The translations under genes and the position numbers were made by a program. A stretch of DNA of 45,134 nt from positions 1 through 45,134 of the forward strand of contig JAIPES010000014.1 in NCBI GenBank assembly GCA_021737045.1, in the 5' to 3' direction. Each line of letters opens with the position of its first letter. Positions within the stretch are counted from its first letter, which is position 1. This document shows, one piece after another, positions 18,314-45,134 of this stretch. A model generated the notes under the pieces. It was not told the DNA's origin, ran no database searches, and saw nothing but the letters and a program-made list of their open reading frames with translations. The DNA comes from Desulfobacteraceae bacterium (GTDB lineage Bacteria; Desulfobacterota; Desulfobacteria; Desulfobacterales; Desulfosalsimonadaceae).

Positions 18314-20668
18314 TTACCTGTCAATATCTGCCGGGGTATAGTCATGAGCGCCGATAATGGCAATAAAATCGGCAATGGTTGCCCCTTTGCAGATTTTGGC
18401 AAACGCCTGGACATTGGTAAAGCTCGAAGCCCGGATGCGCACCCGATAGGCAAAGCCCAGCCCGTCGCTGACCACGTAGTAGCCCTGCTCGCCCCGGGGA
18501 TTTTCCGTTGCGGCATATGCCTCGCCCCTGGGGATTTTCGGCCCCCGGGAGACATTGATAAAATGATGGATCAGGCTTTCAATGTCTTTTAGCATGTCCT
18601 GTCTTTGGGGCACCACGTACCGATAGTCCTCTGAGATATATCTTCCCCCGGGCATTTGGTCGATGACCTGCCGGATGATCCGGACACTTTCCCGGCATTC
18701 TTCTGCCCGCAGGCGAAACCGGGTCCAGCAGTCGCTGACCGTATCGGTCGGCACGTCAAAATCCAGGCTGCCGTAAACCGAATAGGGCATGTTTTTGCGC
18801 AAGTCCCAGTTAACCCCGGTGGACCTGAGATTGGGGCCGGATACCCCCAGATCCACTGCATCGTGTTTTTCCATCAGGCCCACATCCACGGTGCGGGCCC
18901 TGAAAACCGGATTTTTCAGTGTGATTTTTTCGTACTCGCCAAGCCTTTTGGGAAATACCCGCAAAAACGCCTCCACAGGCTCCTTCCAGCCTTCGGGAAG
19001 ATCTGCCGCCACGCCGCCCGGCCGGAAAAACGCGGGATGGAGCCGTCCGCCGGAGATCATCTCCACGATATCCATGATCATTTCCCGGTCCCTGAAGGCA
19101 TAAAAATTGGGCGTAAGCGCTCCCACGTCATTTGCCGTAATGCCCATGTAGGCCATGTGGTTGGCAATCCTGGAAAGTTCGGCAAAAAGCACCCGGATGT
19201 ATTCGGCGCGTTCAGGCACGCGTATGCCCGCTATTTTTTCCAGGGCCAGGACGTAGGGAAACTCGTTTGCCGCCCCCACCAGATAATCCACCCGGTCAGT
19301 GTAGGGGATATACTGTATCCAGTGCTGGCGCTCGCCGATTTTTTCCGCCCCCCGGTGGTGGTAGCCGATATCCATGTCCAGGCCGGTGATGGTTTCCCCG
19401 TCCATTTTTGCGATATACCGGATAATGCCATGGGTGCCGGTGTGGTGCGGGCCGATGTTTAAGACATAGGACTCGCCGTCTTCATCCACTTGGTAAAACT
19501 GCTCTCCGGCCCTGGGCTGGAGCCTGTGCGCATCTTCTGCGGTATAGGCGGGCATTTCAGTGGCCCGTCCCGTGTATGATTTCCGCAGCGGATGGCCCTG
19601 CCAGCCCTCGGGCATCAAAAGCCGGCGCAAATCCGGATGCCCGGAAAACCGGATCCCGAACATGTCATAGATTTCACGCTCGTACCAGCCGGCGTTTTCC
19701 CAGAGCTCGTGGATGCTTTGCGTCTCCGGGTATCTGCCGTACAGGGCCGCCCGGAGACGCACCCGCACGGCCGGATCAAAGGCCAGCAGATGATAGACCA
19801 GGGTGAAATCCGGGTAATCCTCCGGGTTCTGCCGGGCGGACTGGTCAACTGCGGTGTAATCCTCCAGGCGCAGAAAGCGCGGGCCGGACTCGTATTTGAG
19901 AAACCGCAGAACCTCGGCGGCCCGGCTTTGGTCCACATCAATGGTGAGCATGTCAGCGCTTTTTTCCGCAGGCGCCACGGCATCACCAAAACGCCGGACC
20001 AGTTGGGATTTGACTTCGTTTTCAACCGGGGACAGGGTAATTTGGGCCGCAGGCGGGGTCCACATCAATTGCGCCCGGTTTTCATGGAAATCAGGCGGGG
20101 TCACGGAACTGCCCCGAACGGGAATGCCGTTCATGCCCGGCCCACGGGTGTCGCGGGTCTTGGTTTCGCCGTCCACCAGCACGGGGGAAACGGTTCCCTG
20201 GCTGCCCCCGGCCATATGAAAAACCTTGCCCGACGGCCGTTCCTGGGATTGGATTTTTTCCTGCAGCCGGGTCAGGCCATGGAGTACCGCTTCAGGCCGG
20301 GGCGGGCATCCCGGGATGTAAACATCCACGGGCAGGATCTGGTTGACCCCCTGGACCACCGAGTAGACATCATACATTCCGCCGGTATTGGCGCACGATC
20401 CCATGGATATCACCCATTTGGGCTCGGCCATCTGCTCATAAAGGCGCAGCACCACCGGCGCCACCTTCTTGAACACGGTTCCTGAAACAATGAGCAGATC
20501 GGCCTGTCTTGGCGAAAGGCGCAGCACCTCTGCGCCGAAACGGGCAATATCGTATCGCGGCGTCCACGCGGTGATCTCTTCGACAAAGCAGCACGACAGC
20601 CCGAAATACATGGGCCATAGACTCGTTGCCCGGGCCCAGTTGATGACACTGTCCACAGCCCGGCTCAC
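18314..20668 (-). CDS. nuoBCD: Fused NADH-quinone oxidoreductase subunits B-C-D
   Basis: NuoB ([39 protein letters not shown]), NuoC ([38 protein letters not shown]) and NuoD ([16 protein letters not shown]) in one ORF. Start may be the GTG at 20668 (GTGA overlap with the nuoA stop) rather than ATG 20725. Confidence 0.93.
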
Positions 20669-21087
20669 CTGCGGTCGGCTCTTTTGTCCTTTCCGTCCTT
20701 TAATGCCAGTCCTCCCTTGCACCATATGTAGACCAGACCCATAAGCAAAACAAAAATAAAAAAGGTGATCTGCACCATGGCCTTTGCCCCGAGGGCTTTG
20801 ACAGCCAGGGCCCAGGAAAAGATAAATGCGCCTTCCACATCAAAAATCAAAAAAAACACCGCCACCAGAAAAAAGGGCACCGGATAGCGAATCGGTGCTG
20901 ATCCGGTTGGGATAATCCCGCTTTCATAGGGGCGAAGCTTGTTTTCATTGACACGTTTTTCACCCAGAAAGCCGGTGAGAAACATCAACACCGCCATCAT
21001 CAGAAAAACGGCAAAAATAAACGCCAGGAAGCTGACCACTGCCGGTGTCCAGGACGAAAGCGCATATGTGTAATTTACCGGAACCAT
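20665..21087 (-). CDS. nuoA: NADH-quinone oxidoreductase subunit A
   Basis: [46 protein letters not shown]-like cggggag before ATG 21087. Confidence 0.93.
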
Positions 21088-31308: not shown

Positions 31309-32517
31309 CTATATTGCATCATGTTGGGTCTCGCTGACCACCTGGTCGATTTCCTCGGCCAGGCCTGGCGGCAGCCCTTCGATGTCCACGTTTAAAAATC
31401 CGCGGACAATGGTGGAAACAGCGGTTTCCTCGTCAAGCCCCCGGGCCATGAGATACTCGATTTCCCGCTGGTCGATCTTTCCCACAGCCGCCTCATGGGA
31501 CATGTCCACTCCCGGCACCCGGCCCACCAATTCCGGAATGGCGTGCATAATGCCCTCTTTTAAAATCAATCCCTTGCATTCCAGATGCCCCTTGACGCCT
31601 TCGACCCGGGCATCCATCTCGCCCCGGGCGATAATGGTGCCGCCTGTGGTAATGGCCCTGGAAATGATTTCCGCCCGTGCCCCGGGATGCTCCAGAATCA
31701 CCGTGGAGCCGGTATCGAGCTCGCATCCGGGCGGAGCCACAAGGATACTGTTAAACCGCGCCACCGAATCTTTGCCGGCCAGGTAGGTCACCGGGTTCAT
31801 CTGCAAAGATCCCACGGGACGCAGGGAAATATAATTGGACACCACTGTACCGCCTTCTTCCACGTAAATGCCCGTGCGGGGGCGCACCTCGATCTGCTCG
31901 CCCCAGCGATGGATCATGGTAAAGTGCAAAGTGGCGTTCTTTTTGACATAAAATTCAGAAACCCCCACGTGCAGGCCGCTGCGAAGATGCTCGGCAGTTG
32001 CGCAGCCGGTAATAATATGGATGCTGGAATTTTCCTCGGCAATCACCACGTTGTGTACATGCTGGGACAGGCCTTCCTCTGAAATATACAGGCAGGACTG
32101 GACCGGCTCGGCAACCTGCGCCCCGGGAAGCGACCGGATGAAATATCCCTCATGGGGGATATCACGGGTCATGCGGGTATAATCGTCCTTTTCCGGGGAA
32201 ACCAGGCGCCACATGTAATCGCTGAGCCAGTCGTGGGTTTGCAGGGCCTGGCTGATACCCATGATTTCAACATCTGCGGACCCGCAGCCGGAATGGAGAA
32301 CCGAGCAGTCTTTTTGAATAAAGGTTCCGGAACGGTTCTGCCCGGTGATATCCACACCCACATTGAGCCATTGCCTGGCTTCCTCGGGATCCACATTGTC
32401 GAGCTGCTCCAGATAGGCATGCGGATCTGCCTGGTCCTTGTATCCGGTCTTGTGGCTGCTGTTGTCATCCCGGGCTGCCGCCTTGTTTTTATCATCTAGC
32501 TCGCGCATCGAAAACAC
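31309..32517 (-). CDS. sufB: SufB/SufD-family Fe-S scaffold protein, single-copy SmsB-like
   Basis: SYLCIYISEE-like region, GSTVILEHPGARAEIISRAITTGGTIIARGEMDA, LVGRVPGVDMSHEAAVGKIDQREIEYLMARGLDEETAVSTIVRGFLNVD. Start may be 32508. Confidence 0.87.
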   Translation of the reverse strand: MFSMRELDDKNKAAARDDNSSHKTGYKDQADPHAYLEQLDNVDPEEARQWLNVGVDITGQNRSGTFIQKDCSVLHSGCGSADVEIMGISQALQTHDWLSDYMWRLVSPEKDDYTRMTRDIPHEGYFIRSLPGAQVAEPVQSCLYISEEGLSQHVHNVVIAEENSSIHIITGCATAEHLRSGLHVGVSEFYVKKNATLHFTMIHRWGEQIEVRPRTGIYVEEGGTVVSNYISLRPVGSLQMNPVTYLAGKDSVARFNSILVAPPGCELDTGSTVILEHPGARAEIISRAITTGGTIIARGEMDARVEGVKGHLECKGLILKEGIMHAIPELVGRVPGVDMSHEAAVGKIDQREIEYLMARGLDEETAVSTIVRGFLNVDIEGLPPGLAEEIDQVVSETQHDAI

Positions 32518-33254
32518 TCCTCATAGCCGTATTCACGGATCCATTGCAGAATTTCCCGGGCGTTTCTGGCACAGCACAACACGCCGTTATACAGCACATG
32601 TCCCTTGTCTGCGGTGATGTAGTTTAAAATGTGGCCGGTATGGGTGATAACAAGGGCGGATTTGCTCTTTTTCTCGCGGTGGGCAATGGGACCCTCCTTT
32701 TCCCGCTGACGCACACCCCGGCCGAGCAGCTCATTGATAATCTCGCCGAGCAGCACCACGTTTTCCAGGTCCACGCCGGACTCGGGCTCGTCGAGCAGCA
32801 CCAGATCCGGACTCTGGGCCATGAGCTGCAGCATTTCAGATCTTTTCATCTCACCGCCGGAAAAGTTCAGGTTCAGATCCCGGTCCAGGAAATCCGCGAA
32901 ATTGGCCTTTTGGGCCAGCTCTTCCACATTGGCGGGCTGTTGCCCCGCACACAGGGAGACCACGTCCCGGGTTTTGAGTCCGTTTATGGCCGGCGGCCGC
33001 TGAAAGGCCACGCCGATTCCCAGCCGCGCCCTTTCGTGGATGGGCATTCGGGTGATGTCCTCGCCTTTAAACCAGATATGCCCGCTTTTCACCCGGTAGC
33101 CGGAAAAGCCCATGATGGTCATCATCAGGGTGGATTTGCCCGACCCGTTGGGTCCGAACAGGATATGGGTTTCGCCCTCGGGAATCTCCAGGCTGATTCG
33201 GTTTAAAATGGTGCGGCCCTCAACCTCCACCACCAGATCTTCGATTTTTAACAT
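32496..33254 (-). CDS. sufC: SufC-family ATPase
   Basis: FGPNGSGKSTLMMTIMG, NLNFSGGEMKRSEMLQLMAQSPDLVLLDEPESGVD. Start at MLKIEDL with SD gagagg. Confidence 0.9.
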   Translation of the reverse strand: MLKIEDLVVEVEGRTILNRISLEIPEGETHILFGPNGSGKSTLMMTIMGFSGYRVKSGHIWFKGEDITRMPIHERARLGIGVAFQRPPAINGLKTRDVVSLCAGQQPANVEELAQKANFADFLDRDLNLNFSGGEMKRSEMLQLMAQSPDLVLLDEPESGVDLENVVLLGEIINELLGRGVRQREKEGPIAHREKKSKSALVITHTGHILNYITADKGHVLYNGVLCCARNAREILQWIREYGYEECFRCAS

Positions 33255-33302
33255 AACCATCCTCTCATGTATCCATGCAGACAAATTGCGCAGAAAAAAT
33301 TA

Positions 33303-36052: not shown

Positions 36053-39000
36053 TCAGGATGTACTGACCTTATAAACGTCTTTTTTGATACCCAGCCGTTT
36101 TATCTTGGAATAAAGCGTTGTGGGCTTGATATCCAGAAGTGCGGCCGCACCACTGGTGCCGCTCACCCTGCCCTGGCAGGCGGATAAAGCCTTTAAGATA
36201 TGCCGGGCTTGCATTTCTTTTAAGGGCAGAATTGTTTCATCAGGATCGGAAAGACTTTTTGAGGCTTTTTGATCCAGGGCGGGGAGCTCAAGTCGATTGC
36301 TTTTGCTGAGCAGCACGGCACGCTCTATTACATGGCGCAGCTCCCGTATATTGCCGGGCCAGGGATAGCGAATCAGGGCCTCTACATCTTTTCTGGAAAT
36401 CCTGTCAATGTCTTTGCCGAATTTTTTGCTGAATGTCTTCATAAAATATCGGGCCAACAAAGGGATGTCTTCTGAGCGCTCCCGCAGCGGGGGGATATTG
36501 ATGGGAAAGACGTTTAGCCGGTAATAAAAATCCGATCGGAAAAGCCCCTGGCGAACCAGGTCTTCGATGTTGCGATTGCTGGCCGCCACCAGTCGAAACC
36601 GGGTCTTCCGGGTCTGTGTCCCCCCTACCCGCTCAAACTCGCGGGCTTCAAGAACCCTCAGCATTTTGGCCTGAATTTCCAGGGAGAAGGCATCGATATC
36701 ATCCAGAAAAAGCGTTCCATCACTGGCCAGTTCAAAACGGCCTTTCCGTGTCTGGGACGCCCCGGTAAACGCGCCTTTCTCATGGCCGAAAAGTTCGCTG
36801 GCAATCAACTCCGGGCTCAAGGAAACAACACTGACTGCAATAAAGGGCCCGGACGCGCGCTCGCTGCTATGGTGGATGGCCTGGGCGACCAATTCCTTGC
36901 CCACGCCGGTTTCCCCGGTGATCATGACTGTGGTATCGGATTCGGCCACCTGCTGGATGGATCTGAGCATTTTTTTAAATGGCGCTGATCGGCCGATCAT
37001 CTGAGAATGGACGGGACCGGACTCAAGATTTTCTCTGTGATAGTGGGTTTCCGCTTCCAGATCGCTTTTGAGATTGATGATCTCCTCATAGGCTTCCATG
37101 TTTTCAATGGCCACAGCTGCCTGGTTGCTGATGATCCGCAGCAGGGCAGTCTCATCTTCCGGCAGCTGCAGCCGGGTGGGGCCCCGGTCCATGAAAAGCA
37201 CACCCATCACCCTTGCCCTGAGCCGGATTGGAAAACAGCCGAGCCATCCCTTGACGTCCAGATTTCGCTCCTGATGCGGCTGACAGATATCTGCCTGTTG
37301 AATGATCTGTTCACCGGATTCAACAACCTGATGAATAAGCTTCATCCGGGAGCTAAACGTATCCGAGTCAATCTCACGCGTTTTAATGTTTCGGCTGGTC
37401 ACCATTTTCAACTGCCCGTCCTGCCGCAGAAAAATGCAGCCTCTTTCGGCGCCGGCGATGCGCATGGCGTGTTTGATAATTCGGCTGAGCAGCTGTTCCC
37501 GGTTTCGTATGGCGCCTATGGCGTCTCCAATCTCCAAAAGAGATTCAACCCATAAGGCGTGTTTCGATTGACGGTCCAGATAGGGCCTCAGATCCTTTGG
37601 AAAAAGGTCCGGATTGATCCTGGAGAAGACTTCCCAGGCTGATTTGAGCAGTGTCTCCACCCTGGCACGCTCCTTATCCCGTATCATCACACGCGCCTGA
37701 AGGATCTTTGCATGGGACAGTTCGATCTTGGCTCCGGCCCGGGTCAGCAGGGCAATGCTTTGCTTTAAATCCGCCCTGATCTGCCCGGATAACCCTCCTT
37801 TGCGAAAAGCCTTGAGCGCCTTGAAGCGCAGGGCCACCCCTTTCATGTAGATATCCGGCCAACTGAGCAGCCGTGCGATATCCGATTCAAAATTCCACTC
37901 GGGATGGACCATCCCCTGCTCTTCAAGGCCGAGCATGACCTCGAGATTATCCGGTCCCCTGTGATGCGGTGTGCCCAGTATCTTTGAATTCTCCCAGGCC
38001 TGGCTCAGGTGATAAAACGCCTTTTCATATTCCCCGCGGCGGTAGGCAAAAAAGGCACTTTTGCCATTTCCCGGCCAGAGAGTATAAGGATCGAGAAACT
38101 CATCAGGGGTTTTATAAACCTCTTCTAAAAAAGCCTCGCCCTCCTCAAGTCGGCCGGCGTCCGACAAAATGATGACAAGAATCAGCGTGGCATAACGTTC
38201 CAGAACCTGAGCGCCAATTGCTCTGGCCTTCCTGCGAACCGACCGTACCAGCCCCACACCCCTGGCTGTTTCCCCGGCGTTGCCATAGGTCCATCCCAGC
38301 CGAACGCTGCTTTTGAGGGTTTCCACATCCGAGGGAAGTTCCTCATGGTTACCGATAACCGATTCATAGCGATCAATGGCTTCATTGAGATATCCCTGCC
38401 AAAAAAGCAGCTCGGAATTGGCCAGGGCCACCTGAATTTTCAGTCCCGCAGGCAGATCGTGTTTGGGCAGCATCTGCCAGGCCTGTTCCAGCAGTTTTTG
38501 GGCTTCGCCGGATTCACAGGTTCTAATAAAGGTTTTGGCAAGCAGCACCTTGAGCTTTATACAGCGGATCGGATCATCCACCTGATCGCTGAATGCCAGG
38601 GCTTTCAGCAGCCAGGAACGCTGGATATTTTTGGACAGTGCCGTGTCCCTGCAGGTGCAAAGGCCGATGGCTGCGTCGATGAAATCCTTACGTCCATCAC
38701 CGCCTACTGCGGCCATGTCCATGCTCTCCAAAGCCATGCGGTAATACTCTGCCGCATCAATGGGCAGGTTCTGTTCCTGGCAGTAGTGACCGGCATTTAC
38801 GACATCCCTGGCATGCTGAATCGGCATTCCGGAAACCTGGTAAATGTGGGCGACGTTCATCCATCGCCTGGCCCCGTCGGGCAGATATTGGCAGACACCG
38901 CACAGAGATTTTTCTGCCGCACGGAACCGCTCGGTTTCAGAAACAGCATTTATAAGGTTCTTTGCAGAATTAAAATCGGTCAGGTAATAATATCCCGCGC

Positions 39001-39211
39001 CTTTGTCTCTGCAACAGGAAAGTTGGCCGGAGCGCTGCAGATCCTCGATGATCCGCAACACCTCTACCGGGGAATAGCCCGTAGTGGTGCAAAGAATGTT
39101 CAAAGAAATCGGTGGCGGCAGCAGTGATAAAATCAGAATAATTTCCGCGCCCATATCATCCTGCTGTAAAAAGCATTCATCCATTTGTTTCGTGCGTGCT
39201 TCAAGGCTCAT
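36053..39211 (-). CDS. Sigma54-dependent transcriptional activator with winged-helix/TPR, GAF, AAA+ and Fis-type HTH domains (1052 aa)
   Basis: Walker A [14 protein letters not shown] loop ([11 protein letters not shown]), [42 protein letters not shown], C-terminal HTH. N-terminal ~560 aa look helical/TPR-like with an N-terminal HTH. Confidence 0.9.
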   Translation of the reverse strand: [1052 protein letters not shown]

Positions 39212-39759: not shown

Positions 39760-41277
39760 TTAAAACCGCCATGTCATTTCAATGTAATTACATAAGGCGA
39801 TTTCATCCCAGTCTCCCCCTGTATCCGGATATTTTGCCTCCAGGATGTCCTGTGTTCCATTGCCGGGAGAAAAAAGGGACAGTGTTGTCCCGAGAGAAAA
39901 ATGCGGGTTGAATCTATAGGTCAGGTTTGCGGATAATTCAGACCCCATTTCATCATCAATCTCGGTGCCGGTGAGATCTTCCATGGCGCCTGTTTCGGTG
40001 AACATCAGATACTGAAACTGCACCTTGTAATCGAACTTGTCCCAACGACCCTTGAACCCGGCTCCAATAGAGGTCAAACCCGGATGATAAGCCGAACTGG
40101 TATTGCCAACGCCGCCATATCCGGTGCCGACAACCCATGGAGCCGGCCCATTGGCAAGATCATTGCCCAAAAGTGCGGGAAGCATTGAATAGACTATCGT
40201 TCCAAGGGATTCAACTGTCTTGTAAGCGAACGCGTTGGGATTGCCAAAGGTCGGGGTGGCAAACTGCCCGTCTGTAATACCGTTATAGGCATTAATTTCT
40301 GAATCATTTGCATCGTCATCGCCTGCAACAAGGTATCCTCCGAAATAGGGTTGGAAAGAGGAAGAAACTTTGTACTCAAGTGAAGCAAAGGCGGCATAGG
40401 AGCTTACATCCGCATCTTCGTCCGTGGCCGGATAGTTTGCTTTTTCTCCTGTTACATAGACGAATTCCGCCCTTGGCGTCAGCCTCCCCAGTGTTCCAAA
40501 AAATTCGGTTGCCACGTAATGTATTTTCGCGTCCCTTTCTCTGTTGTCAGAATATGCATAAAAAGGGCTGACATTGAGATTTTGATTCATTAAAGGAATA
40601 TTAAATTTCAAAGAATAGAATCGCCAGTCCTGCTCCTGAGAAATCAGCTCGCTATCCGTGGTTTCAAGATCCTCCTCAATCGTGTGATATCTAAGGGCCC
40701 AATCCACGTCATTAAAGGAGCCCGTTAAACCCAGGTAGGGGTGATCATCACCATAAACCAGTCCACCGGTTGCCAAATCGAGTCCTTTGATTGACCATCC
40801 GGATTCCAGGGTGACTGGCGAGTTGCCAAACGTATTGAAATCATATGTTAATACCAACGCCTCAATGCCGAACTGATCCCCGTAGACACCGGACGGGGCA
40901 TCCCATCCTTCATCTGCCCCAACATCCCGGGTCCGGTCAACATTGTCCTTGTCCATTACGAATTCGCCTTCCAGCAAAGTCATAAAACTCCAGTTTTCGC
41001 CGCCGCCCTCAAGCCCCAGGCGAAGCTGTTGCCGGATGGAATGGTCTGCATAGTTTCCGCCGGTATCCCCGATATATTCAAGGGGCGTGGACTCATCGTT
41101 AAAATCCGGGTTAGCGACAAAGATAGGCTGGGTTGTTGCGCTTCCAAAGATTTGGATATTCATATCAGAAAACTTTGAGACCACTTCCCCTGTTTTCATT
41201 TTTGCTTCAGAGGGTTGGATGGTTAAGAATAAAAAACTGACACACAGACCGGTTAAAATCAACAAGGACCTCTTCAT
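39760..41277 (-). CDS. Outer-membrane beta-barrel / porin-like protein
   Basis: Signal peptide (MKRSLLILTGLCVSFLFLTIQPSEA), alternating amphipathic strands, aromatic C-terminus ...IEMTWRF. SD aggagga. Confidence 0.75.
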   Translation of the reverse strand: MKRSLLILTGLCVSFLFLTIQPSEAKMKTGEVVSKFSDMNIQIFGSATTQPIFVANPDFNDESTPLEYIGDTGGNYADHSIRQQLRLGLEGGGENWSFMTLLEGEFVMDKDNVDRTRDVGADEGWDAPSGVYGDQFGIEALVLTYDFNTFGNSPVTLESGWSIKGLDLATGGLVYGDDHPYLGLTGSFNDVDWALRYHTIEEDLETTDSELISQEQDWRFYSLKFNIPLMNQNLNVSPFYAYSDNRERDAKIHYVATEFFGTLGRLTPRAEFVYVTGEKANYPATDEDADVSSYAAFASLEYKVSSSFQPYFGGYLVAGDDDANDSEINAYNGITDGQFATPTFGNPNAFAYKTVESLGTIVYSMLPALLGNDLANGPAPWVVGTGYGGVGNTSSAYHPGLTSIGAGFKGRWDKFDYKVQFQYLMFTETGAMEDLTGTEIDDEMGSELSANLTYRFNPHFSLGTTLSLFSPGNGTQDILEAKYPDTGGDWDEIALCNYIEMTWRF

Positions 41278-41346: not shown

Positions 41347-42324
41347 TCAGAACGTTTTTCTGCTCATCCCATCGATGGCCTCGGAGACGGCTTCATATAC
41401 ACCCGGAAATGAACTGACATTGAGGCCCTGGGTCAGGCAGGGGATGAAATAGTGCTTTCCGCACCGCCGGCAGGCATTTTCCACATGATCCGCAATGATT
41501 TCCGGTTTCCAGTCCTTGCAGTCCACTACCCCGCTGTCAATTTCGCCCATAAAGGAAATCTGCCCCCCGTATTCCCTGATCAGCTCCGGTGTATTATTGG
41601 TGGTCATCACGCCCTGCCAGATATCGATGCCCATATCGATCATGTAGGGAACCAGATTGGCGGCATAGGAATCACTGTGGTGGACAATCAGTTCAACGCC
41701 GTTGTCCTTCCAGAAACCATATGCCTTTTTGTAAGGCTCCAGATAGAACTCCTCAAACATTTCCGGCGACATGAACGAGGCAATCTGTCCGCCCCAGTCA
41801 TCATGGTGGAAAACAGCATCCGGCTGAATCCTGTCGATGATCTGCCTGGCATAACGGATTTCATACTCGGTCAGATAGTCGATCAGCTCGTGCATGTACT
41901 CGGGTTCTTCGTACAGGTTCATCATGGCGGCTTCCATGCCCATGAGCATGTGGGTCATCTCAAATGTTCCTGAAGCAAAAAACGCGGTGACGAATTTGTC
42001 CTTCCGGTCGACCGCTTTGGCATGCTCGATGGCCGGTGCCCAGCTTTCATCAGAAAATTCAACCGACGGCGCAGAGACCACGTCCCGCCATTTGGTGATA
42101 TCCTTGAGCACGATGTGTTCATCGTCATGTACAGGAAACGGACCGAGCTGATCTTTCGGCCAGTTAAAAGTAATCCCCCACTCGTTGGTAATTATCTCCC
42201 CGGGCTTGGGACGGGTTCGCAGCGGGGCTTCCAGTATGATTTCCAGGAATTCATACTGATTGACAAACCGATCCGGGTTGCCGCCCCTTATGGCCTCCAT
42301 GAGGTTCTGTCGTTTGGTAAGCAT
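41347..42324 (-). CDS. UroD-superfamily methyltransferase (MtvB-like MT1)
   Basis: NEWGITFNWPKDQLGPFP, HHDDWGGQIASFMSPEMFEEFYLEPYK, VELIVHHSDSYAANLVPYMIDMGIDIWQGVM; adjacent to the corrinoid protein and MT2. Confidence 0.82.
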   Translation of the reverse strand: MLTKRQNLMEAIRGGNPDRFVNQYEFLEIILEAPLRTRPKPGEIITNEWGITFNWPKDQLGPFPVHDDEHIVLKDITKWRDVVSAPSVEFSDESWAPAIEHAKAVDRKDKFVTAFFASGTFEMTHMLMGMEAAMMNLYEEPEYMHELIDYLTEYEIRYARQIIDRIQPDAVFHHDDWGGQIASFMSPEMFEEFYLEPYKKAYGFWKDNGVELIVHHSDSYAANLVPYMIDMGIDIWQGVMTTNNTPELIREYGGQISFMGEIDSGVVDCKDWKPEIIADHVENACRRCGKHYFIPCLTQGLNVSSFPGVYEAVSEAIDGMSRKTF

Positions 42325-42372
42325 GGGTTTGGATCCTTTCTTTTATTTTTTTTAACATTGAAAACACTGGCA

Positions 42373-43008
42373 TTATAAGGAGTTAACCAGCTCCCTGGCT
42401 TTGACTGCCGCGCTGCCGGCATCCGGGGCATAGGCATCTGCACCGATTTTATCTGCAAACTCCTGGGTAACCGGTGCCCCGCCGACGATGACTTTAAATC
42501 CGCTCAGGCCGCTTTCCTTAAGCGCTTCAACCGTGGCCTGCATAGCCGGCATGGTGGTGGACAAAAGACCGGAACATGCGACCAGCTTGACATTCTCATT
42601 TTCCTTGACGGCCTGAATAAATTTTTCCGCCGGCACATCAACTCCCAGATCCACCATGGTAAACCCGGCGCTCTCCAGCATCATGGTGACCAGATTTTTG
42701 CCGATATCATGCAGGTCGCCCTGAACCGTACCGATGATGCAGGTGCCAAGTGAGATGGATGTCTCTTTTGCCAGATGGGGCTTGAGTACATCCACGCCCA
42801 GAGACATGGCCTTGGCGGCAATGAGCATTTCCGGCACAAAAATGGTGCCGGCCGAAAACTTATCGCCCACCGTTCCCATCCCGTCGATCATGGCCTGGAG
42901 AATATCATTGGCTGCATATCCTTCATCCAGGGCTTCCTGTACCAGCCCGGATATGAGTTTGGTTTTGCCTGCTTCCACGTTTGATTTTACTTCTTCGATT
43001 TTAGACAT
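42373..43008 (-). CDS. Corrinoid protein (methyltransferase cognate, MtvC-like)
   Basis: B12-binding motif GDLHDIGKNLV (DxHxxG) and the SGLLSTTMPAM...VIVGGAPVT region. Confidence 0.93.
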   Translation of the reverse strand: MSKIEEVKSNVEAGKTKLISGLVQEALDEGYAANDILQAMIDGMGTVGDKFSAGTIFVPEMLIAAKAMSLGVDVLKPHLAKETSISLGTCIIGTVQGDLHDIGKNLVTMMLESAGFTMVDLGVDVPAEKFIQAVKENENVKLVACSGLLSTTMPAMQATVEALKESGLSGFKVIVGGAPVTQEFADKIGADAYAPDAGSAAVKARELVNSL

Positions 43009-43049
43009 GGCCTACACCCTTTCTATGAAATTGATTTTTCGACATTTAT

Positions 43050-43853
43050 CTATTTTACAGGGCCGAAAAGCCCTTCCCTGTAGGCATTGATGTATTCAAT
43101 GCAGTACTCATCATTGCCTTTCAAAGCTTCCGCGGCATAGATCAGCCCCATCATGTGCTTGTCCATCGGGTTAATAATGGCACTGTCCATACCGGCACCA
43201 ACGGCAAGGACAATAAAAGCCTGGTTGACATATTTTCTGGCCGGCAGGTTAAACGAGATATTGCTGGCACCGCCCGTGACATGAATGCCCGGGTACTGCT
43301 CTTTTATTTCTCTTATGACTTTCAGCACCGTGTTGATCCCATCCTCGGATGTGCACAGCATCTCCACCAGGGGATCGATGTGAAGGCGCGAGGGAGCAAT
43401 GCCATATTCCTTTGCTTTTTCCATAATGCCGGAAAACACCTGCATTCGATGTTCACCGCTTTTGGGAATGCCGGTGTCATCGCTTAAAAGAGCGACGCAT
43501 TCCCATTCGGTGTCGGCGATTACAGGGAAGATGACATCGATTTTATCCCCTTCCAGGGATACGGAGTTGACCATGCCGGGCTTGTTGCACAGTTTAATGG
43601 ATTCAGCACAGATCTGCGCACTGGGACTGTCCACTGCAATGGGGGTATCCGTTGTTTCCTGAACAAAATCGATCAGCCACTTCATTGATTCAAGCTCCAC
43701 GGAAACTTCCGTGGATGCGCAGACATCAATAAAGTGAGCACCTGCACCCGCCTGGTTTTCAGCCAGATTTTTTATAAAATCCTTGTCTTTGCTGGCGATG
43801 GCCTTTGAAACAGAGGGAATCGCTCCGTTTATTTTTTCTCCGATGATGATCAT
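43050..43853 (-). CDS. Methyltetrahydrofolate:corrinoid methyltransferase (pterin-binding MT2, MtvA-like)
   Basis: MIIIGEKINGAIPSV, GAHFIDVCAS, PIAVDSPS, VTGGASNISFNLPARKYVNQAF. Confidence 0.9.
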   Translation of the reverse strand: MIIIGEKINGAIPSVSKAIASKDKDFIKNLAENQAGAGAHFIDVCASTEVSVELESMKWLIDFVQETTDTPIAVDSPSAQICAESIKLCNKPGMVNSVSLEGDKIDVIFPVIADTEWECVALLSDDTGIPKSGEHRMQVFSGIMEKAKEYGIAPSRLHIDPLVEMLCTSEDGINTVLKVIREIKEQYPGIHVTGGASNISFNLPARKYVNQAFIVLAVGAGMDSAIINPMDKHMMGLIYAAEALKGNDEYCIEYINAYREGLFGPVK

Positions 43854-43913
43854 TTTGGGCTAACCTTTCTCGTATGTTGAATTAGACAAAAAGGCTGCCG
43901 GTATGAAGGAAGC

Positions 43914-45134
43914 TCATTTTCTTCCACCGGGAGCGTCACGATTTGCCGAAAGCTTCTTTGGAAAGAAGAGCATTACAGCGGCCAGCAGGGAACCCATCCC
44001 CATTATCAGGGCAACGGTGGGCAGCTTTGCCCCGATCTGCAAAAATACACCGGCCAGGATGGGGGAGAGCACAGCGCCGGCCCGTCCAACGCCGATGACA
44101 AAGCCTGTACCCGTGGCTCTGACATCCGTGGGAAAGGCAACGGCAAGGAGCGAATACAGACCGGAAATGCCGGCATTTGCGAAAAAGCCGGCCAGCGCCG
44201 CCAATAGTTTGATCTGGGTGAGTTCGGGACCGGTTCGACCAAATACCGCAACAAATAGCGATGTGAGCACCATGATCAGCACGGTCAGCTTCTTCAACGC
44301 GATCCGTGTGGTCAACCACCCGAAAACCGCGCCGCCCAGTGCCCCGCCCAAACTGGCCCAAACCAGGACTCCGCCGGCAAGGGCGGGAGAAAACCCCATG
44401 TCGGCAACGACCTTGGGAGACCATTTCAGAATGAAGTAGAAGGTGGTGATGTGAAGGAAATAGGCAGCGGTCAGTATCAGGGTTATCGGAAGGATGGATG
44501 GCGAAAAAATGCTCCAAACAGCCTTTTTCTCTTTTGTCTCCCGGATTTCGGGCAGTTTTTCGATACCTGGAAAATTCATTCTTGCCAGTACGGCATTAAT
44601 CTTTCCCAAGGCCCCTTTGGGCTGCCTGTTTGTCAGCCAGTGCACGGATTCGGGCACAAGAACGTATACCGCAAGGGCCAGGATGCCGGTTACCGCAGCG
44701 CCGAAGTAAAATATGGAACGCCAGTCGTGGGCCTGGAGCAGGTGTGAGGCGATCATGCCCCCGAAGGTGCCGCCTAAAGGGTAGCCGATAACCATCAATG
44801 AAATGCTCATCCCCCGGCGTTTGATATTGGAAAACTCCGCTACTATCGCATTGACACAGGCCAGAATACCGCCGATGCCCAAACCCACCAGAATCCGCCA
44901 GACAGAAAGTTGAATGGGATTGGAAGCGGTGGTGACCAAAAACATACCGGCGGACATGGCAATCAGGCAGCCCAGGACCGTGGGCCGCCTGCCGAACCTG
45001 TCCGCCACGCTCCCCAGGAAAAAGGAACCCACAGCCATACCGATCAATTCCATGGCCATAACCACTCCCAGGGCAGCCTGGGGTATCCCCCACTCACTGG
45101 CTATACCCGGCGCGGCAAAACTGATGGACAAGAC
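43914..45134 (-). CDS. MFS transporter, AAHS (aromatic acid:H+ symporter)-like, 5' end truncated by window edge
   Basis: GSVADRFGRRP, GLGIGGILACVNAIVAEFSNIKRRG, VIGYPLGGTFGGMI. The frame stays open (VLSISF...) to the last base. Confidence 0.82.
   Translation of the reverse strand, partial: VLSISFAAPGIASEWGIPQAALGVVMAMELIGMAVGSFFLGSVADRFGRRPTVLGCLIAMSAGMFLVTTASNPIQLSVWRILVGLGIGGILACVNAIVAEFSNIKRRGMSISLMVIGYPLGGTFGGMIASHLLQAHDWRSIFYFGAAVTGILALAVYVLVPESVHWLTNRQPKGALGKINAVLARMNFPGIEKLPEIRETKEKKAVWSIFSPSILPITLILTAAYFLHITTFYFILKWSPKVVADMGFSPALAGGVLVWASLGGALGGAVFGWLTTRIALKKLTVLIMVLTSLFVAVFGRTGPELTQIKLLAALAGFFANAGISGLYSLLAVAFPTDVRATGTGFVIGVGRAGAVLSPILAGVFLQIGAKLPTVALIMGMGSLLAAVMLFFPKKLSANRDAPGGRK

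Follow-up and report, generated by a model that had tools for sequence, protein, structure and literature searches.

Acetogens are regarded as the main anaerobic users of the methoxyl groups of lignin, along with some archaea and a small number of Gram-positive sulfate reducers. The vanillate O-demethylase of Acetobacterium dehalogenans (OdmB/OdmA/OdmD) has a methyltransferase of the UroD superfamily (MT1), a separate corrinoid protein (CP) and a pterin-binding methyltransferase (MT2), and its activator gene is unlinked. The same build is found in a gene cluster in the window analyzed here, the entire contig C25 (JAIPES010000014.1; 45,134 nt) of a metagenome-assembled genome (MAG; 2.86 Mb, 148 contigs, 88% complete) of a Desulfobacteraceae bacterium. 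In comparison with the Odm system, the window host is a Gram-negative sulfate reducer, its MT1 has Gln at the third residue of what we take to be the OdmB zinc motif, and window-type loci add permeases of the GPH and aromatic acid/H+ symport (AAHS) families and a sigma-54 activator; OdmB is not pinned among the A. dehalogenans paralogues. The Desulfitobacterium and Desulfosporosinus operons of the Dhaf_4610-4612 type share the gene order MT2-CP-MT1, but their hosts are Gram-positive and the flanks examined hold no window-type GPH, AAHS or sigma-54 activator gene; Dhaf_4611 itself lay outside the comparison. The Mto system of Methermicoccus shengliensis and Archaeoglobus fulgidus, set beside the window by description and not by sequence, has an MtvB-like MT1, a CP, a separate MT2 and major facilitator superfamily (MFS) genes in its cluster (PMC8630106, PMC8359953), but it is archaeal, carries its activator MtoD in the cluster and passes the methyl group to tetrahydromethanopterin. 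CdmBCA of A. dehalogenans likewise combines a UroD-type MT1, a CP and an MT2 that methylates tetrahydrofolate (THF) (PMC13222342). However, it does not act on methoxylated aromatics, the window MT1 shares only 22% identity with the presumed CdmB, and the MT2 presumed to accompany the latter would belong to another subgroup.

We consider it probable, at roughly 0.78, that the product of the window locus is a corrinoid-dependent O-demethylase of the OdmB type, here in a Gram-negative sulfate reducer. The earlier note had described four consecutive, co-directional genes; the coordinates and the Pfam and NCBIfam assignments bear this out (Table 1). Read 5' to 3', the genes are an MFS permease, MT2, CP and MT1, with intact open reading frames (ORFs) and gaps of 41-60 nt; the reading frame of the AAHS-like permease gene is open at the contig end, where its 5' part is missing. 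A scan of GTDB genomes for MT1 relatives gave 80 loci. The closest MT1s were those of Desulfobacula MAGs (83-84% identity) and the isolate Desulfosarcina cetonica (78%), followed by Desulfosporosinus, Acetobacterium, Alkalibaculum, Clostridium carboxidivorans and relatives (63-72%) and by Lachnospiraceae and others (53-60%). The window MT1 and the Bacillota MT1s (Acetobacterium, Alkalibaculum, Desulfosporosinus and others) formed a single clade (SH-aLRT 100) at 53-72% identity over the full length, and many of the close Bacillota loci retained the order MT2-CP-MT1. With dozens of genomes sharing this gene set, its occurrence is far beyond chance. There are 28 UroD-family genes in A. dehalogenans; when its paralogues were taken as separate regions, ten were 58-69% identical to the window MT1 (a range also given as 60-69%) and the remainder at most 29%. 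A further match in this species, L129 (the same gene as L023), was 69% identical. In the tree, the window MT1 shares its clade with at least ten A. dehalogenans paralogues; OdmB itself (UniProt O87604) was not among the compared sequences.

The partner proteins were examined in the same way. The CP carries DLHDIG as its DxHxxG motif, with downstream S-L and GG elements, and shares 69-77% of its residues with eight CPs of A. dehalogenans, among them that of the presumed Vdm cluster; the next best reached 48%. MT2 passed the NCBIfam NF005719 cut-off (355.6 bits; cut-off 259), was 66-68% identical to A. dehalogenans MT2s of the O-demethylase type and 48% to others, and matched PDB 4O0Q end to end (3.3e-85). 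PMC8318568 lists 4O0Q, citing Sjuts 2015, as the MT2 of a Desulfitobacterium hafniense O-demethylase system; it has also served as an MT2 template (PMC13222342). When six Desulfosporosinus-family genomes were searched with 4O0Q, the best identity was 82%, and D. hafniense is therefore not one of the six. By sequence, CP and MT2 thus group with their O-demethylase-type counterparts, those encoded beside the presumed VdmB among them. Since these partners, too, are of that type, the locus is best read as an O-demethylase of the OdmB type, and the proposal that a sulfate reducer carries an Odm/Vdm-like corrinoid O-demethylation module of three components is well supported.

The earlier note had also inferred a dedicated aromatic-acid transporter. 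TIGR00895 (aromatic acid/H+ symport) was the top family for the truncated MFS protein, but its score (298 bits) was below the cut-off of 418.55, as was that of a full-length AAHS relative (316.6 bits). The window permease is about 76% identical to the one in the equivalent position of locus L002, and the operon order GPH-AAHS-MT2-CP-MT1 was found in L002, L194 and L195. In L003/L196 and D. cetonica (L004/L197) AAHS is absent and GPH lies immediately before MT2. AAHS genes were thus present in four of the six Desulfobacterota loci, while a GPH (MelB-type) symporter gene stood upstream in all five loci where this position was readable; the AAHS permease is optional and GPH is the constant transporter. 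The GPH protein scored 233.7 bits for TIGR00792, narrowly above the cut-off of 231.35, and GPH genes also occur in the A. dehalogenans clusters L117 and L123. Because AAHS is optional and below its cut-off and GPH occurs in A. dehalogenans clusters as well, the transporter argument for an aromatic-acid substrate is no more than suggestive. The GPH family consists of glycoside/hexuronide carriers, and its constancy, together with its presence in L117 and L123, would fit a variant in which an O-demethylase of the same kind acts not on an aromatic acid but on a neutral or conjugated methoxylated aromatic, such as guaiacol, methoxyphenol, a lignan or a glycoside. However, AAHS genes are present in the window and three relatives, and the characterized OdmB and MtvB act on vanillate (PMC13222342). 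We regard this variant as possible, clearly short of an even chance.

We also analyzed the regulation of the cluster. A TPR-GAF-AAA-HTH_8 activator gene lies beside MT1 in five of the six Desulfobacterota loci (the window, L002, L003/L196, L194 and L195). It is convergent to MT1 in four of them; in the window both genes have the same orientation and are separated by a beta-barrel gene, and the activator is about 70% identical to the relatives in L002 and L003. A sigma-54-like (-24/-12-like) box was found upstream of GPH in L194, L195, L002 and L003 (TGGCATAGGCTTTGC, TGGCATGGGGTTTGC and, twice, CGGCACGGGTTTTGC), with 9-10 of 11 matches and 112-130 nt before the start codon, against a background of about 0.04 per 500 nt. 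These four loci represent two independent lineages, each pair being closely similar. In D. cetonica there was no activator on its short contig and no box at the distance of 112-130 nt. The neighboring activator probably switches the operon on via a -24/-12 promoter ahead of GPH. A literature search on sigma-54 control of corrinoid O-demethylase operons found nothing, and the regulation of such systems was called largely unexplored in the 2026 Cdm paper (PMC13222342).

The genome was then considered as a whole. The earlier note saw no reductive activator (RACE); this is correct for the window cluster, but the genome has a complete one in trans (617 aa, RACo_C_ter and middle domains) on contig C91. 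There it belongs to another corrinoid operon (L192 9414-15934) encoding a DUF1638 protein, MT2, CP, a 448-aa UroD-family MT1, a Phenol_MetA_deg outer-membrane protein, RACE and an efflux-like MFS protein. In A. dehalogenans one activator, with an unlinked gene, serves two O-demethylases (PMC13222342), and activation in trans from C91 is therefore reasonable. In keeping with the sulfate reducer presumed in the earlier note, the genome has dsrA, which scored above its cut-off (629 bits). FTHFS was present, together with six MTHFR-family matches. Feeding of methyl-THF into oxidation, likewise proposed before, is plausible in a genome with these genes and with no match to ACS.

We infer the substrate class, the reaction, transport, regulation and physiological use as follows. 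A methoxylated aromatic, probably of plant origin, would enter the cell via the GPH and/or AAHS permease, perhaps through the beta-barrel protein. Once bound by MT1, the substrate would offer its methoxy group to cob(I)alamin of the CP; the products would be methyl-cob(III)alamin and the free phenol, and MT2 would pass the methyl group to THF. RACE, encoded elsewhere, would re-reduce corrinoid that had slipped to Co(II). Methyl-THF would be oxidized via MTHFR and FTHFS, with sulfate as the final acceptor, and the TPR-GAF activator would turn on the operon from the promoter before GPH.

Another alternative is that MT1 is a CdmB-like haloalkane-dehalogenating methyltransferase, which would transfer the methyl group of chloromethane to THF; presumably, the D. 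hafniense O-demethylase MT1 accepts methyl chloride in a side reaction. CdmB, too, belongs to the UroD superfamily and has a separate CP and MT2, and it acts on haloalkanes and not on methoxylated aromatics (PMC13222342); membership of the superfamily therefore does not fix the substrate. However, the A. dehalogenans locus L116, which fits the cdmBCA gene order, has an MT1 only 22% identical to that of the window, and MT2 and CP of the L116 group reach about 48% identity in comparison with 66-77% for the O-demethylase type. L116 is assigned to Cdm by gene order, and its MT1, the presumed CdmB, has no match in the PDB set searched and is not confirmed in identity. The operon permeases would also fit a polar or charged substrate and not a diffusible gas. 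A Cdm-type haloalkane enzyme thus appears unlikely, with only a slight chance of being correct.

We examined the residues of MT1 that might serve catalysis. The zinc motif of OdmB, the vanillate MT1, is presumably E-X14-E-X20-H, which is not shown to define the family; this pattern occurs in seven A. dehalogenans paralogues, all of the window MT1's clade. The corresponding residues of the window MT1 are E131, E146 and Q167, the His being replaced. Of 40 aligned relatives, 16 have Lys at position 167, including close Desulfobacterota and one Desulfitobacteriaceae protein, and therefore the presumed motif does not define the clade and the His is not required. Invariant over the 40 relatives are E122, H125, H174-D175-D176-W177-G178, H215-H216, D218 and N243, and the window MT1 retains all 36 invariant alignment columns. 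The AlphaFold2 model (pLDDT 96.2) is a TIM barrel of the UroD/MtaA fold, and the nearest folds by Foldseek were UroD and the Methanosarcina mazei methyltransferase 4AY7/4AY8; with the Pfam URO-D match (Table 1), this places the predicted MT1 in the UroD superfamily. In the model, E131 and E146 are on helices and residue 167 terminates a helix. The ends of the barrel strands are instead occupied by the invariant H174-D175-D176 and H215-H216, which would be the likelier active-site residues. MtvB and CdmB function without zinc (PMC13222342). Two other MT1 identities found no support. As regards MtaA, MtbA or CmuA, the window MT1 scored 37.4 bits for NCBIfam mtaA_cmuA, below the cut-off of 235.4. 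The motif D-X27-C-X39-C, which we assume to be that of VdmB, the veratrole MT1, is absent from it; exactly one A. dehalogenans paralogue, L130, carries this motif, with its own CP and MT2, and is 24% identical to the window MT1. That the cluster is a degenerate, inactive copy without the presumed zinc ligand and a linked activator, as Gln for His at position 167 and the lack of RACE in the cluster might suggest, is very improbable given that all ORFs are intact, 36 of 36 invariant columns are retained, relatives have Lys at position 167, and MtvB and CdmB without zinc and A. dehalogenans with an unlinked activator have working systems (PMC13222342).

Several points weigh against an OdmB-type O-demethylase. 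The presumed zinc site is not intact, and the link to OdmB was drawn from the paralogue structure and the presumed motif, with the published OdmB, VdmB and MtvB sequences outside the comparison. Genomes often hold numerous paralogues of the clade, which suggests that substrates differ among them, and RACE is missing from the cluster. No match was obtained for CdhC or ACS, and none above the cut-off for BamA, a marker of the benzoyl-CoA pathway, which is weak evidence in an 88% complete MAG.

The distribution of the cluster is patchy. Among 395 Desulfobacterota genomes, six had any MT1 member at E 1e-60, and the close type was found in three: the genome analyzed here and two from a single other genus. 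A 99% complete genome from the same genus as the window does not carry the cluster. By comparison, 27 of 46 genomes of the Desulfosporosinus hippei family carry an MT1 63-73% identical to that of the window. Such a patchy distribution and the roughly 70% identity to proteins of Bacillota speak for lateral gain. The close Desulfobacterota MT1s form one clade (100/99), nested within Bacillota in the bootstrap trees. The cluster thus probably came from Bacillota, a direction that is likely and not proven because the approximately unbiased test did not reject a sister position of the Desulfobacterota clade (p 0.3). Tentatively, and at a little under even odds, we propose that some Desulfobacterota took an acetogen O-demethylase and developed from it a methoxydotrophy island that is self-contained and under sigma-54 control (GPH-AAHS-MT2-CP-MT1 and the TPR-GAF activator), which would harvest methyl groups for sulfate respiration and leave the ring intact. 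Novelty is moderate because methoxydotrophic sulfate reducers are already known: A. fulgidus grows on methoxylated aromatics (PMC8359953), and Desulfotomaculum gibsoniae uses them and carries O-demethylation genes (PMC4148979). The kind of enzyme, elsewhere characteristic of acetogens, is known as well; new are the enzyme set in this Gram-negative branch and the likely sigma-54 switch. The operon could be used as a genetic marker of a sink for methoxyl groups in sediments rich in sulfate, a sink that could compete with acetogens and methanogens, and its attached activator is a lead on regulation.

Table 1. Genes of the predicted O-demethylase cluster and its neighbors in the window.
Feature	Coordinates	Strand	Details
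MT1, UroD-superfamily, OdmB-like (predicted aryl methyl ether:corrinoid methyltransferase)	41347..42324	-	325 aa; Pfam URO-D 5.6e-19
Corrinoid protein, OdmA/VdmA-type	42373..43008	-	211 aa; Pfam B12-binding, B12-binding_2; DxHxxG at residues 98-103
MT2, methyl-corrinoid:tetrahydrofolate methyltransferase	43050..43853	-	267 aa; Pfam Pterin_bind 1e-20; NF005719
AAHS-like MFS permease	43914..45134	-	MFS_1 1.3e-46; TIGR00895 top family, below cut-off
Sigma-54 activator TPR-GAF-AAA-HTH_8, probable operon regulator	36053..39211	-	1052 aa; Pfam
Predicted outer-membrane beta-barrel protein	39760..41277	-	505 aa; signal peptide, C-terminal Phe

The beta-barrel gene lies directly downstream of MT1, and we are unsure whether it belongs to the operon; its product had no Pfam or NCBIfam match and no counterpart in the related loci examined. 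In L002 (7114-9299) the AAHS and MT2 genes are broken by apparent frameshifts, and an assembly error is likely since the contig has about 3x coverage. Three MT1 copies of the window clade stand close together with CPs in Alkalibacter mobilis (L017 314-4349), a sign of lineage-specific expansion. In the Desulfobacterota family f43 (L137-L148; G040, G215 and G259), each genome has two to five MT1 paralogues, of which the closest share 54-60% identity with that of the window, and these genomes are candidate methoxydotrophs with an apparently separate gain. Elsewhere in the window, the 20-, 30- and 49-kDa subunits of complex I are fused in one 803-aa ORF (NuoBCD-like; 18314-20725) within the nuo set. 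At 31309-33284 a SufC-like ATPase gene is followed by that of a short SufB/D-like protein, whose top NCBIfam match was SmsB, below its cut-off; the pair resembles a minimal SUF system.

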